Shown here: positions 24,507 to 41,348 of the stretch, piece after piece
Layout of the letters: each line of letters begins with the position of its first letter
How positions within the stretch are numbered: position 1 is the first letter of the stretch
Assembly: GCF_021284745.1 (NCBI RefSeq)
Contig: NZ_CP089925.1
Span: 372,001-436,000, forward strand
Reading direction: 5' to 3'
Source of the DNA: Lysobacter sp. KIS68-7
Lineage (GTDB): Bacteria > Pseudomonadota > Gammaproteobacteria > Xanthomonadales > Xanthomonadaceae
DNA: 64,000 bases
Notes under the pieces: model-generated
Databases searched by the model: none
What the model was told of the DNA's origin: nothing
Seen by the model: the letters and a program-made list of their open reading frames with translations, nothing else
Translations under genes and position numbers: made by a program

Positions 24507-24624
24507 TTTCCGAGCCCGTGAAGGCCATGTGAGGCCCGGCCCTCCGGGCGCCCATCCCCGGGCGGCCGGCCGATGTTGCATCGCACCACCCCGCGACACC
24601 GCCGGCTGGTCCACAATGCGCCCC

Positions 24625-24976
24625 GGCGGAGTTGGTGGGACAGCCGCGTCGCGCGAAAGCGCGCCGAGGAAAGTCCGGGCTCCACAGGGCACGGTGCCAG
24701 GTAACGCCTGGGCGGCGCGAGCCGACGGAAAGTGCAACAGAAAGAAACCGCCGATGGCCCCTCGGGGATCAGGCAAGGGTGAAATGGTGCGGTAAGAGCG
24801 CACCGCGAGTCCGGCAACGGACCGGCACGGCAAACCCCACCGGGAGCAAGGCCAAATAGGGACCCCATGACGTTGCCCGCGTCAGGTCCGGGTAGGCCGC
24901 TCGAGCGTATCGGTGACGATGCGCCTAGAGGAATGGTTGTCTCAGACAGAACCCGGCTTATACGCCGACTCCGCCA
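24625..24976 (+). ncRNA. rnpB: RNase P RNA (bacterial class A)
   Basis: This is the catalytic RNA that matures tRNA 5' ends. The universal cores are visible: 'GAGGAAAGTCCGGGCTCC' near 24669, 'GGTAACGCC', 'CAGAAAGAAACCGCC', 'GGTAAGAGCGCACCG' and 'CAGAACCCGGCTTAT' near the 3' end. The ends were set by helix P1, where GGCGGAGT (24625-24632) pairs with ACTCCGCC (24968-24975). A terminator follows at once. The length of about 352 bases is normal for type A. Confidence 0.97.
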
Positions 24977-25010
24977 CTAAAAAGGCCCGCGCAAGCGGGC
25001 CTTTTTAGTG
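24975..25010. terminator. Bidirectional Rho-independent terminator of rnpB and the GT/MTase gene
   Basis: A perfect 16-bp stem (24975-24990 with 24995-25010) with a GCAA loop has a T5 run on the plus strand and, by symmetry, on the minus strand. It serves rnpB and the converging gene that ends at 25026. Confidence 0.9.
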
Positions 25011-25025
25011 GTGAAGCAACGAGGG

Positions 25026-26492
25026 TTACGCAACGGTGCTTTCGCGGAGGCGGTGGGCCAGGGCGCGGCCGGCTTCGCTTGTCGCGGCGAAATAGAGGGT
25101 GGTGTCGCGATATTCCATGAGGGGCACCGACTCCAGGACTTCAGGGAGCGATGCGAGCGTCGCGTGCAGCGGTTCGTGGAAATACGTGATGTGCGAGCTG
25201 ACGTGGGGATTGGCGTCGTAGCCGGCGACGAGCAGGCCGGTGCGTGCGAGCGGGGCGAGTCGTTGCAACAGCTGCGCGTAGTCCTCGCGACTGCGCTGGT
25301 GGATGAGGACGTCGAGGCAGAAGACGAAGTCGCGTGCCTGGCGGTCGTCGGCATCGAATTCCGCCGGCGTCATGAAGCGCCAGTCCGGGCGCTTCCCGCG
25401 CGCGACGCGCAGGGCTTCTGTCGCGATGTCCACGCCGGTGCCATCGGTGAAACGCAGCGTGCGCGAGACCTCCAGGTCGCCGCAGCCCCAGTCGAGCAGC
25501 GACGCCTCCGGTGCGAGCTCGGCCAGCGCGGCGAGCAGTGCGTGCTTGCGCTCCAGCACGTCGCCACGCGAGCCCAGGCCGCTGCCGAGCGCGGGATGGG
25601 CGGCATAACGGTGGTTCCAGAACGTGCGGTTGTCGAAGCCCTCGCGCTGGAAGGCATCGATCGCGGCATTTGCGCGCGCGATGGATGCGGCGGCTTCGGG
25701 CGCTGCGCGCGCGTCCAGGCGCATGTGCGGATCGAGGTGGCCGTGATGGTGCAGCAGCAGCGGTGCTTCTGCGGTCGGTGTCACGCGCATGTGCGTCGGG
25801 AAATTCCAGACGTCGGACAGCAGCTCCGCGTGCAGGCCGCTTTCGGCGAGCGCCAGGCAGAAGGCCACCTGGTCGACGTGCACGCGCCAGCGTTCGAGCA
25901 GGTCGAGTCGTTCGAGCAACCAACGGGCCCAGTGCGCCCAGCGCGGTCCCAGTGAATCGCGCAGGGCGCGCGCGTCGACGATGTACAGGCCGCCGTTGAA
26001 ATTGCCGGCCAAGGTATCGAACGGCACCAGCACGCCATTGGGATCGCGGCGCGCATTCGTGCGCACTTCCGGCAGTGGCAGGGCCGCGGCGGCGAACACG
26101 TTGCGCAACACGGGCAAGGGCGGATTGGCGGCATCCACGAGCTTGCCGGCGACAGGTGCCGCGATGCGCGCGATGGGCAGCGGCGCGGCAAATGCCATGT
26201 CGCAATCCATCAGCACCACGCACTGCGCGTCGCCGAAATCGGTTTCGACCTGGCGGATCTTGTTGCAATGCGGACTGCGCGGATCGAACTTCGCCACCGC
26301 CACCGTGCGCACGCCGCGCGCGCGGCACATCGCTTCGATGTCGGCGCGCAGCGGCGCTGCGTGGTGCACGACGATGTCGCGCGCCTCGATGCCGCCCGGG
26401 CCGAGCGCGGTCGCCAACCATGGGGTGAAGGAGGACCAGATCGACGGGACGTCGTCGAGGACGCAGGACCACGCGATTCTTTCAACTGCCAT
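25026..26492 (-). CDS. Two-domain protein: GT-A glycosyltransferase-like plus SAM methyltransferase
   Basis: The 488-residue protein is not recognised as a named gene. The N-terminal half looks like a nucleotide-sugar transferase of GT-A fold: DCD at residues 96-98 within 'VVLMDCDMAF' would be the DxD metal site, followed by 'FNGGLYIVDA' (165-174), a 'VDQVAFCLAL' helix (206-215) and 'LLLHHHGHLD' (245-254). The C-terminal half, from about residue 310, is a class I methyltransferase with motif I 'LLDWGCGDLEVS' (332-343) and 'DFVFCLDVLIHQ'. No signal peptide is seen, so it should be cytoplasmic. The ATG at 26492 overlaps the end of rsmI by 11 bases, so the two are probably co-expressed. The acceptor is unknown. 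Confidence 0.75.
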   Translation of the reverse strand: MAVERIAWSCVLDDVPSIWSSFTPWLATALGPGGIEARDIVVHHAAPLRADIEAMCRARGVRTVAVAKFDPRSPHCNKIRQVETDFGDAQCVVLMDCDMAFAAPLPIARIAAPVAGKLVDAANPPLPVLRNVFAAAALPLPEVRTNARRDPNGVLVPFDTLAGNFNGGLYIVDARALRDSLGPRWAHWARWLLERLDLLERWRVHVDQVAFCLALAESGLHAELLSDVWNFPTHMRVTPTAEAPLLLHHHGHLDPHMRLDARAAPEAAASIARANAAIDAFQREGFDNRTFWNHRYAAHPALGSGLGSRGDVLERKHALLAALAELAPEASLLDWGCGDLEVSRTLRFTDGTGVDIATEALRVARGKRPDWRFMTPAEFDADDRQARDFVFCLDVLIHQRSREDYAQLLQRLAPLARTGLLVAGYDANPHVSSHITYFHEPLHATLASLPEVLESVPLMEYRDTTLYFAATSEAGRALAHRLRESTVA

Positions 26493-27306
26493 ACAAAGCC
26501 TTGCGCGGCGCACCGCTGAGCTCGGCCGCGAGTTTCGCGGCGGTGGACGGCGGCAGGTGCTCGCCGAGTTTTGCGTACAGGCGCTTGCCTTCGGCGATGC
26601 GGGCGTCTGCGTCGTCGCCTGCGCCCTGGACGAGGACCACGAATTCGCCCTTGCGCTGGTTCGGGTCTTCGGCGACGCGGGCCTGCAGGTCCGCGAGCGT
26701 TCCGTCGAGGACGGTTTCGAAGAGCTTGGTGAGTTCGCGGGCGATCACGGCGCGGCGGTCGCCACCGAAGATCGTCGCCATGTCGGCGAGCGCTTCCTCG
26801 ATGCGGTGCGCGGATTCGTAGAAGGCGAGCGTGCGGGTTTCGGCGGCGAGCGGTGCGAGGCGCTCGCGGCGGGCGCTCGCCTTTGCCGGGAGGAAACCTT
26901 CGAAGACGAGGCGATCGCTCGGCAGGCCGGCCACGCTGAGGGCGGCGACGAAGGCACAGGCGCCAGGCACGGGGCTCACCTTCAGGCCGGCCGCGCGGGC
27001 GGCGCGCACGAGGCGGAAGCCGGGGTCGCTCACCAGCGGCGTGCCCGCATCGGACACCAGCGCGAGCGATTCACCGGCTTGCAGCCGCGCGACGAGGCGT
27101 TCGGCCAGCAGGTCTTCGTTGTGTTCGTGCAGCGCCACCAACGGCCGCTCGATGCCGTAATGCGAGAGCAGTTGGCGCGTGTGGCGCGTGTCCTCGGCGC
27201 AGATCGCATCGACGGTGCGCAGCGTTTCGAGCGCGCGCGGCGACAGGTCGCCCAGGTTTCCGATGGGCGTGGCGACGACGTGAAGGGTTCCGGGGCGAGG
27301 CTGCAT
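26482..27306 (-). CDS. rsmI: 16S rRNA (cytidine-1402-2'-O)-methyltransferase RsmI
   Basis: The 274-residue tetrapyrrole-methylase-fold enzyme adds the 2'-O-methyl at C1402. It shows 'LHVVATPIGNLGDLSPRALETL', 'AEDTRHTRQLL', 'LVSDAGTPLVSDPGF' and 'FEGFLPAKASARRERL', all characteristic. It is divergent from lpoA, as in E. coli. The chosen ATG at 27306 gives the family N-terminus, although the frame is open much further upstream. Confidence 0.97.
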   Translation of the reverse strand: MQPRPGTLHVVATPIGNLGDLSPRALETLRTVDAICAEDTRHTRQLLSHYGIERPLVALHEHNEDLLAERLVARLQAGESLALVSDAGTPLVSDPGFRLVRAARAAGLKVSPVPGACAFVAALSVAGLPSDRLVFEGFLPAKASARRERLAPLAAETRTLAFYESAHRIEEALADMATIFGGDRRAVIARELTKLFETVLDGTLADLQARVAEDPNQRKGEFVVLVQGAGDDADARIAEGKRLYAKLGEHLPPSTAAKLAAELSGAPRKALYGS

Positions 27307-27345
27307 TGGGGAAGTCCGTCGGCAACCGCGGCGACGGTCGGCAGG

Positions 27346-27355
27346 TAGAATCCTA
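27346..27355. promoter_or_regulatory. Overlapping -10-like elements between rsmI and lpoA
   Basis: TAGAAT on the plus strand (27346-27351) and TAGGAT on the minus strand (27350-27355) overlap in the 87-base divergent gap. Neither has a good -35. If both are used, lpoA and rsmI transcription would compete. Confidence 0.35.
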
Positions 27356-27393
27356 GCCGCTTCCCGCCATGCCGCGCCCGCACCGAGGACCCG

Positions 27394-28812
27394 ATGCCCG
27401 CAACCCCGCACCGCTTCGAATGGAAACGACTCCTGCGCGCGCTGCTCGTCGTCGCGCTGGCGGCCGGGATGGCCGCGTGTGCCACGGTCACCACCACGGG
27501 TCCGGCCGGTCCGTCTGAAGTGAAGCTGGATCCCGCCTTCGTGCAGGCGCGCGACCTGGCGAAGAACGAAGGCACGCTGCCCGCCGACCAGGTGGCCGCG
27601 AACCGCCGCAACATCGAACGCCTGCTCGCGGGCCTGGACAACGCCACGCTCTCGAGCAACGCCGCGGCGCTGCCCGCCGGCGATCCGCTCTACCCCTACG
27701 CCGGCCATGCGCTGCTCGCGCGCGGCCTGCCGCTTCCGCGGCCCTTCGATCGCGGCGCATGGCACTTCGACAAGCGCCCGCCCGCCGATCGCGACGGCTA
27801 TCGCCCGCCGGTGAAGCTCGCGGTGCTGCTGCCCTTGTCGGGCAGCCTCGCGCCGGCCGCCGCGCCGGTGCGCGACGGTTTCCTCACCGGTTACTACGGC
27901 GAAACGCGCGCGCGCCCGGAAGTGGCGTTCTACGACACCGCAGGCACGCCCGGCGGCGCGGTCGCCGCGTACGCCAAGGCCGTGGCGGAAGGCAACGATT
28001 TCGTCCTCGGCCCGCTGGGCCGGGATGAAGTCACGGCCGTGTTCCGCGATGCACAGCTGACGGTGCCGATGCTCGCGTTGAATCGCAGCAGCGTGGCGCC
28101 GCCGGCCGGCAGCGCGAGCTTCTCGCTGTCGCCGGAAGACGATGGCATCGCGGCCGCGGAATTCCTGCTCGCGCGCAACGCCAAGCGCGTGCTCGTGCTC
28201 ACCGGCAACGACGACGGCATGCGCCGCGCCGCCGCAGCGCTGCGCGATCGCCTGGCCGAACGCGGCGGTGCGGTCGTCGATACGCTCGACGTCGGTGCCG
28301 ATGCGCTGGCGTTCCAGCCGCGCCTGCAGGCCGCGGTGCAGAAAGCCGGCACCGTCGACGCGGTCTTCCTTGCGATGCGGGCATCGGAAGCGCGGATGGT
28401 CGCGCCGCTGCTCGGCACCGCCGGGCTCGCAGGCAAGCCGCGCGTGGCGACGTCGCAGCTGCTCACGGGCACGGGCGAAAAGCCTTCGGAAGACATGGTG
28501 CTCGACGGCATCGCCTATCCGACCGAACCCTGGACGGTGCGCGGCGTGTCCGGCCTGCCGTCCGCCAGCAGCGTCGCGTCGCGTCTGAAGTCCGCACGCG
28601 GCGGCGGCGCGCGTCTGTTCGCCTTCGGCTACGACGCGTGGCTGATCACTGCGTTCCTCGAGAAGCTCGCCCTCGACGCCAACGGCCGCATCGATGGCGC
28701 CACCGGCGTGCTGCGCCTGGATGGCTTCGGCAATGTCCTGCATACGCCCACGTGGTCGACCTTCAGCGGCGGTTCGCCCGTGCCGCTCCCGGATGCCGCC
28801 GCCGCGCGCTGA
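27394..28812 (+). CDS. lpoA: Penicillin-binding protein activator LpoA-like lipoprotein
   Basis: The 472-residue lipoprotein has its lipobox cysteine at residue 29 ('LAAGMAAC'). The C-terminal two thirds form a periplasmic-binding-protein-like fold beginning '[29 protein letters not shown]', as in LpoA, the outer-membrane activator of PBP1A. The N-terminal TPR-like part is much shorter than in E. coli LpoA. The neighbourhood rsmI-lpoA-yraN is the same as in enterobacteria. A good GAGGA precedes the ATG. Confidence 0.85.
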
Positions 28813-40481: not shown

Positions 40482-41348
40482 TCAGGCGGCCACCGACCGG
40501 ACCACCGCACGCGCCATCGCGAACGGAAAGCGGCCCCAGATCATCGCGAACACCGCGGCGCGTTCCACCGCCGTGCGACGTTCGGCTTCGAACTTGCGGA
40601 AGTAGCGCCATAGCCCGCGGTGCTTGTGCCATTCGACGAACACCGGCCGCGCGCGCGAGGACACACCGCGCACGTGCACCACGCGCACGGCATTCGCCAC
40701 CGCAATCGTCGCGCCCAGGGCGCGTGCGCGGCGGCACAGGTCCAGGTCTTCGGCGTGCAGGCGATAGCCTTCGTCGAAGCCGCCCAGTCGGTTGAACAGC
40801 GCGCGCGGCATCAGCATCAACGCGCCGGAGATCGCATCGACGACCTGCAGCGCTTGTGCATCGTCGGGGGCGATGCCGAGGTTCGCCTGCTTCGGGTTGC
40901 GGAGCATCGCGGCGAAATCGGGATCGCGGCGGCGGGTGGCCGCATCGCGTTCGCCGTCCTCGCCGACCTGGTCGGCGCCGACCAGCGCAGCGCTGCCGAG
41001 GTCTTCGGCGGCTTCGCGCAGGCGCACCAACGTATCGCGTTCGACCAGGCAATCCGGGTTCACGAAAGCGAGCCACGGACGATCGGTGTCGGCGGCGCCC
41101 TGGTTGCACGCGACGGCGAAGCCGGGGTTGTCGGGATTGGCGACGAAGCGCACGCGCAGGTCCGCGGCGGCGTGGCGCTGCATGATCGAGAGCGTCTCGT
41201 CGTGCGAGGCGTTGTCGACGATGCGCACCTGGCCGACGCCTTCGGCGTCGCGGACGCGGCGCAGGCATTCGTCGAGCGTCTCGCTGCTTTCGTGCGCCAC
41301 GATGACGACGGCGATGTCGCCGGGTGCGTTGTCGGCCGGCGTGGTCAT
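40482..41348 (-). CDS. Family 2 glycosyltransferase
   Basis: The 288-residue cytoplasmic GT-A enzyme begins 'IAVVIVAHESSETLDECLRRV' and continues 'VRIVDNASHDETL', 'NPGFAVACNQGA' and 'PWLAFVNPDCLVERDTL'. These are the rhamnosyltransferase/WbbL-like GT2 signatures, with NPDC at the DxD position. 'GGFDEGYRLHAEDLDLCRRARALG' is the acceptor-site ED motif. It is the last gene of the xps operon, overlapping the preceding gene (ATGA). The sugar and acceptor are unknown. Confidence 0.85.
   Translation of the reverse strand: MTTPADNAPGDIAVVIVAHESSETLDECLRRVRDAEGVGQVRIVDNASHDETLSIMQRHAAADLRVRFVANPDNPGFAVACNQGAADTDRPWLAFVNPDCLVERDTLVRLREAAEDLGSAALVGADQVGEDGERDAATRRRDPDFAAMLRNPKQANLGIAPDDAQALQVVDAISGALMLMPRALFNRLGGFDEGYRLHAEDLDLCRRARALGATIAVANAVRVVHVRGVSSRARPVFVEWHKHRGLWRYFRKFEAERRTAVERAAVFAMIWGRFPFAMARAVVRSVAA

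Follow-up and report, generated by a model that had tools for sequence, protein, structure and literature searches.

A putative glycosyltransferase–methyltransferase fusion of Lysobacter and its unnamed GT-A family

In a 64,000-nucleotide stretch of the genome of Lysobacter sp. KIS68-7 (contig NZ_CP089925.1; hereafter the window), we found a gene whose product very probably joins a GT-A glycosyltransferase domain of an unnamed GT8-like family to a class I SAM methyltransferase domain. Glycosyltransferase–methyltransferase fusions as such are already known; the new part is the unnamed GT-A family with its exchangeable methyl- and sulfo-transferring partners. An earlier note, made from the letters alone, had described the gene as a glycosyltransferase/methyltransferase fusion coupled to rsmI. 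The architecture it gave is right and both halves are very probably right too, with the fold search, the conserved residues and the partner domains pointing to a GT-A domain plus a methyltransferase; however, it leaned too heavily on rsmI, and functional coupling to that gene did not hold up. The features discussed below are as follows:

25026..26492, minus strand: fusion gene, predicted GT-A/class I SAM methyltransferase, 488 aa plus stop (open reading frame and orthologues)
25641..26492, minus strand: N-terminal GT-A-like domain, residues 1–284 (fold model, fold searches, 11-member alignment)
26199..26207, minus strand: DxD motif, putative metal/nucleotide-sugar site, D96-C97-D98 (sequence and alignment)
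25983..26000, minus strand: FNGGLY motif, residues 165–170 (sequence and alignment)
25740..25751, minus strand: HHHG, residues 248–251 (H248 invariant in the alignment)
25029..25640, minus strand: probable C-terminal class I SAM methyltransferase domain, residues 285–488 (Pfam, profile match to 4qdj)
25476..25499, minus strand: SAM motif I, LLDWGCGD, residues 332–339 (sequence)
26482..26492, minus strand: 11-nt overlap of the fusion-gene start with the rsmI end (sequence)
26482..27306, minus strand: rsmI, upstream neighbour, outside the enzyme (open reading frame)
24628..24976, plus strand: rnpB (RNase P RNA class A), converging neighbour (RF00010, 314.5 bits)
24976..25009, no strand: perfect 15-bp inverted repeat with a 4-nt loop (sequence)

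The fusion gene and its two halves

The open reading frame and the motifs to which the earlier note had pointed are all present: DCD (residues 96–98), FNGGLY (165–170) and a complete SAM motif I, LLDWGCGDLEVS (332–343). The reported 11-base overlap with rsmI, whose product we take by name and function to be a 16S rRNA 2'-O-ribose methyltransferase, is likewise there, the shared letters being ATGGCAGTTGA at 26492–26482. At the other end rnpB converges on the fusion gene, and the inverted repeat, flanked by A- and T-runs, lies between rnpB and the fusion-gene stop codon; it is probably a two-way terminator common to both genes. This repeat is absent from the output of the promoter and terminator scan, which also gave no sigma-70-like promoter in 24550–27500. 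The fusion gene is coding, because its GC3 (0.84) is like that of rsmI (0.85) and its dN/dS against the orthologue in genome G075 is 0.37 for the glycosyltransferase half and 0.32 for the methyltransferase half. The window protein has no evident membrane segment (highest 19-residue Kyte–Doolittle mean 1.40). Among the open reading frames of 22.5–29 kb there is no glycan gene cluster directly beside it, and the nearest GT2 match among those listed in the window is at 40899–41309.

In the window protein Pfam recovers methyltransferase models only, within residues 318–422 and all below cut-off, with Methyltransf_11 at 20.9 bits against a cut-off of 21.2. Among the three orthologues scanned, the one from Lysobacter (now Cognatiluteimonas) profundi (L040) passes this cut-off (22.6 vs 21.2), and those from Lysobacter (now Noviluteimonas) lactosilyticus (L039) and genome G127 (protein P0004) fall under it. 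NCBIfam and PHROGs likewise give weak methyltransferase matches only. A three-sequence profile of the C-half matches solved class I methyltransferases, the best being the Mg-protoporphyrin O-methyltransferase 4qdj (E 4e-4), and SAM motif I is kept in all four fused proteins. The W-RY-SG lead-in and motif I are shared with standalone YWxxRYxxGGxSGxGS methyltransferases of the window's family (L006–L011 and L020), which are ~27–37% identical to the C-half (L010, 23% by tblastn) but have no glycosyltransferase domain in the frames read. These sequence matches make the C-half very probably a class I SAM methyltransferase domain.

The window N-half has no family in Pfam, even at E 1, and no match in NCBIfam at E 1. 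We modelled it with AlphaFold from four sequences (the window protein and three homologues), a shallow alignment; the best of five models reached a pLDDT of 65.7 and a pTM of 0.67, the other four had a pLDDT of 42–45, and the whole-protein model (39.6) was too poor for use. Foldseek against the PDB returned 64 rows with E no higher than 0.001 (best E 1.7e-6). Nearly all of the best 50, judged by title and with two AvpGT rows set aside, are either GT-A glycosyltransferases or nucleotidyltransferases that share this fold; the matches include LH3, glycogenin, a GT8 protein and IspD. The TM-scores on the query are modest (0.25–0.44), as expected from a shallow model. VIA-align places a bacterial histo-blood-group glycosyltransferase at the top (4ayl; Z 11.6, rmsd 3.4, 167 aligned), followed by mannosylglycerate synthase (2y4j; Z 11.4), and since rows less than 1 Z apart count as tied, the search does not point to any one family. 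In the viral structure library, many of the best 50 rows are named glycosyltransferases, the rest being uncharacterized or otherwise named. The GT-A fold proposed for this half is thus matched in both Foldseek and VIA-align, on a shallow model.

An alignment of 11 family members, including the window domain, has N77, K78, D96, D98, P141, G168, W185, D207, Q208, A214, L225, N230 and H248 invariant, with N166 of FNGGLY at 90% or more; H248 is presumably the counterpart of the late histidine of GT8. Both aspartates of the DxD are kept in 11/11 aligned domains. The earlier note had named a lack of these residues in homologues as grounds for refutation, and one of the four fused proteins, the further orthologue P0004 of G127, has indeed lost the motif. 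The order DxD, NGG, DQ, late H is one that we take to be the layout of GT8 enzymes. With GT8 (PF01501) the domain would accordingly have both the GT-A fold and this layout in common; it differs in that the window domain does not reach the PF01501 gathering cut-off and has no match at E 1. One of the 11 members matches at E 0.0026.

With the halves searched as separate profiles, the C-half leads to class I methyltransferases as above, and the N-half leads to GT8 by way of its distant members. The core N-half family scores 98.9% (E 1e-17) against the distant members, and these in turn 81.5% (E 1e-5) against one GT8 set and 3.6% against the other. The core family reaches GT8 directly at only 1.5% and 1.3% (two sets), and all 11 members together at 26% and 39%. 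GT2 and methyltransferase controls score at most 0.2% with the core profile, at most 0.5% with the distant profile, and 0.6% or less against all three N-half profiles; PF03407-type proteins give no profile signal with the core family (0.8%). Shallow profiles are insensitive here, because the two GT8 sets score only 11.8% against each other; both sets are small, one including L094 and L095 (below the PF01501 cut-off) and the other L099 (found with PF03407). In sequence searches of the PDB, the 11-member profile found no chain at E 10 or better, and the distant-member profile found only two rows, judged to be chance.

Taken with the fold model, these comparisons make the N-half very probably a GT-A domain of an unnamed GT8-like family. 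We regard it as very improbable that this half is instead a sugar nucleotidyltransferase with that fold: while IspD, HddC and CMP-sugar synthetases are among the Foldseek rows listed, the profile chain leads to GT8 (the profiles compared being GT8, GT2, methyltransferase and PF03407), the motif order matches the presumed GT8 layout, and the VIA-align rows listed are nearly all glycosyltransferases, with one nucleotidyltransferase, KdsB.

Relatives of the N-half and their partners

Relatives of the N-half were drawn from 398 genomes of the phylum, 369 of the class, 299 of the order and 144 of a second family, plus the 297-genome and named-genome scans. We accepted 13 outside the clade of the fusion and dropped five further matches; no relatives were found in plasmids, phages or five viral-contig scans. 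A match in G1056 lies in a frame that looks like a beta-propeller protein and was dropped.

A sulfotransferase or sulfotransferase-like protein is fused or adjacent to the N-half relative in seven of the 13. Three of these are fusions recognized by Pfam Sulfotransfer_3 (G357, G1177 and G1243), and one relative (G070) adjoins a gene that passes the Sulfotransfer_2 cut-off and is itself closely followed by another sulfotransferase-like stretch. The remaining three stand on weaker evidence, below Pfam cut-offs or by motif and BLAST similarity: the fused domain of G875 has a sulfotransferase-like loop and no Pfam match, and the genes adjoining the relatives in G796 and G1160 are under the Pfam cut-off yet similar to those sulfotransferases. 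A GT8-like protein of G810, not found by tblastn, is not among the 13; its inclusion would make the sulfotransferase count 7/14. Between them, the seven sulfotransferases form three groups that do not cross-match in blastp at E 1e-3, and tblastn gives one marginal match between two of the groups (E 6e-4). Homologues of these sulfotransferases occur in 0/84 control loci (25 GT2, 30 rnpB, 10 GT8/PF03407 and 19 methyltransferase), a control in which the sulfotransferases themselves were the queries, the loci came mostly from the window's family and the flanks were 1.5 kb. This tblastn search replaced a regular expression for the sulfotransferase loop, which had matched 6/25 control GT2 and 2/30 rnpB loci, taken as false.

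The fusions with a sulfotransferase or sulfotransferase-like domain (L031, L137, L138 and L046) have, like the window protein, an N-half of the same family first and then a group-transferring domain, but this domain takes the place of the methyltransferase; the N-halves of L031 and L046 are 21% and 31% identical to that of the window protein. A further relative, in G468, is fused to a different methyltransferase (1/13). In the other five (L041, L032, L018, L140 and L141) no decorating partner was seen in the stretches examined, for which the tblastn queries were the seven sulfotransferases and the window methyltransferase half, and Pfam was applied to some neighbours only. Among these, L041 is a standalone protein from a Hyphomonadaceae MAG with 48% identity to the window N-half, and L032 is fused to Glyco_tranf_2_4. 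The earlier note had proposed checking whether homologues always keep both halves and the link to rsmI; they do not, given these standalone and other-partner N-halves and the lack of rsmI near any of the 13: neither rsmI nor mraZ (at E 1e-3), nor any Rfam family, was found in the outside loci, each of 2–12 kb.

The repeated joining of this GT-A domain to methyl- and sulfo-transferring enzymes is best read as a sugar being added and the partner decorating it. We tentatively suggest, with rather less than even confidence, that the N-half family serves as a chassis whose capping domain has been exchanged among two methyltransferase and three sulfotransferase lineages, fused or neighbouring.

Several loci have further neighbours of their own. 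In G070 (L024:3598-5247) and G1177 (L137:4-444) a second stretch is similar to another sulfotransferase group, and these loci may be sulfated-glycan clusters. The closest standalone relative (L041:1264-8426) lies between genes that read as murC-like and murB-like, beside a WD40/beta-propeller gene. The fusion in Lysobacteraceae, too, has mraZ in its vicinity. A more distant relative (L018:1-3342, G239) adjoins a gene that reads as ABC-transporter-like, and for that branch the acceptor is perhaps a peptide or protein.

Probable insertion site, history and selection

The full fusion is rare and was found in four of the 297 genomes searched in the window's family, namely the window genome, G075, G127 and G002; in many genomes only part of the first-pass candidates was scored, and the named-genome scan relied on two peptide patterns and so undercounts. 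Matches in G201, G249 and G260 were dropped as chance, since they lie inside an open frame that we take from its sequence to be a cyclopropane-fatty-acid synthase.

All four fused copies lie between rsmI and rnpB. Three of the five genomes examined from the window's genus have the fusion; in the other two, G039 and G102, the site is empty, with rsmI ~40 nt from rnpB, and matches over the methyltransferase part only occur elsewhere in the genome. The site is also without a copy in G054, placed in the same genus as G002. The 11-nt rsmI overlap (ATGGC-A/G-GTTGA) is present in the window and G002 copies and missing in those of G075 and G127. In an RsmI+MraZ tree of 18 genomes, the window's genus is supported at 0.996, G102 as sister of G127 at 0.994, and the wider clade with G002 and G054 at 0.911, whereas the node uniting G002 with the window's genus without G054 has only 0.301. 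The simplest history is a single ancestral gain with two or three later losses; alternatively, the gene may have passed from one of the two lineages to the other at the rsmI–rnpB site. Most likely, the rsmI neighbourhood represents one insertion site, and the place beside rsmI is an accident of a single insertion.

A functional tie to rsmI or RNase P, for instance as an RNA-modifying enzyme, we hold to be barely credible. The constant position between the two genes and the overlap in half of the copies would favor such a tie, but the shared site is explicable by one ancestral insertion and is empty in two of five genomes of the genus, rsmI, mraZ and rnpB are absent from the stretches around all 13 outside relatives, and the GT-A fold and the sulfotransferase-linked relatives point to carbohydrates. 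We therefore reject the coupling to rsmI or rnpB.

Two observations concern rnpB itself. In G002 (Cognatiluteimonas profundi; L003:1003-1363) it is on the same strand as rsmI and mraZ, opposite to its orientation in the window, G075 and G127, and this is a one-gene inversion relative to the neighbours. G034 has two different rnpB genes ~60 kb apart on one contig (L082:6763-7112 and L083:6864-7223); both are full-length matches, with the second half nearly identical and the first half differing in two stretches.

Scored separately by NG86, the two halves are under purifying selection in intact copies: alongside the window–G075 values given above, the window–G002 pair has dN/dS of 0.38 in the glycosyltransferase half and 0.41 in the methyltransferase half. 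The G075–G127 pair departs from this, with 0.58 in the glycosyltransferase half vs 0.25 in the methyltransferase half and 32 gap columns in the former, none in the latter. The G127 glycosyltransferase half has D-x-A for DxD (D98 lost), LDSG for FNGG and no WNFPTH, while its methyltransferase half is kept. To judge from these residues, the G127 glycosyltransferase half is probably catalytically dead by now, and it looks like a domain decaying while its partner is retained. Because G127 retains the methyltransferase half after motif loss, the two halves are not strictly interdependent.

Such a copy is what one would expect if the protein were mainly a methyltransferase whose GT-A half, inactive or dispensable, served to bind or position the glycan or nucleotide sugar, with G127 keeping its methyltransferase half intact after losing D98, FNGG and about 32 residues of the other. 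We nonetheless find this unlikely. The other three fusions and all 11 aligned members, standalone proteins without a methyltransferase included, retain D96, D98, DQ, N230 and H248; constraint on both halves is similar in the window–G075 and window–G002 pairs; and G102, the sister of G127, has no copy at the site, so that decay fits better than repurposing. G127 establishes that glycosyltransferase function can be lost and says nothing on its never having existed. The intact, decayed and absent states inside one genus form a natural experiment on the role of the glycosyltransferase half.

Proposed function and precedents

Sugar transfer and SAM-dependent methylation are the activities predicted for the window protein from its sequence. 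In the mechanism that we propose, it would be a soluble bifunctional enzyme whose N-terminal GT-A domain moves the sugar of a nucleotide-sugar donor onto an acceptor by way of the DxD metal site, whereupon the C-terminal class I SAM domain would O-methylate the added sugar to give a capped product. We infer the order of the reactions, the action of both halves on the same sugar, and a surface glycan or small molecule as the acceptor.

The nearest precedent in architecture is A064R of chlorovirus PBCV-1, a single polypeptide that starts with a metal-dependent GT-A domain and ends with a class I SAM domain, as the window protein would; in vitro it transfers rhamnose and puts an O-methyl group on the terminal rhamnose (PMC9614988). 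It differs in having a middle glycosyltransferase domain, a second rhamnosyltransferase, on whose sugar the methyl group goes (PMC9614988). The likeness is one of architecture, the N-half profile having no PDB match at E 10; a GT-A domain and a methyltransferase on one chain with both motif sets intact are found in the window, G075 and G002 copies but not in that of G127. Weighing the evidence, we incline, if only slightly, to a GT-A plus SAM methyltransferase enzyme of the A064R kind that adds a sugar and then decorates it, both activities falling on that one sugar.

Both halves could also be active in different steps, the methyltransferase acting, for example, on the acceptor or on the terminal residue left by another enzyme, as in methyl-terminated O-antigens. 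Klebsiella O7 ORF6 offers a bacterial parallel with methyltransferase and glycosyltransferase modules on one chain, a chain-terminating methyltransferase-kinase module being fused to two GT2 modules and the steps being separate (PMC11231755). It is set apart from the window protein by its N-terminal methyltransferase, kinase, coiled coil and GT2 modules and its O-antigen cluster (PMC11231755). Pfam finds no kinase module in the window protein, the gene does not directly adjoin an O-antigen cluster, and the exchange of sulfotransferase partners agrees no less well with a modification of the added sugar, so that a division into separate steps appears to us a fairly improbable reading. A linked fungal pair of glycosyltransferase and methyltransferase genes carries out methylglucosylation (PMC8669486). 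Among the open-licence papers listed for architecture precedents, gene neighbourhood and genus, we found none on the N-half GT-A family.

As the family lacks a Pfam or NCBIfam match, its members will probably escape annotation as glycosyltransferases. If the partners do decorate the added sugar, the partner would predict the product, methylated or sulfated, making the family directly testable; and, if this is true, the family would serve as a tool to cap glycans with methyl or sulfate.
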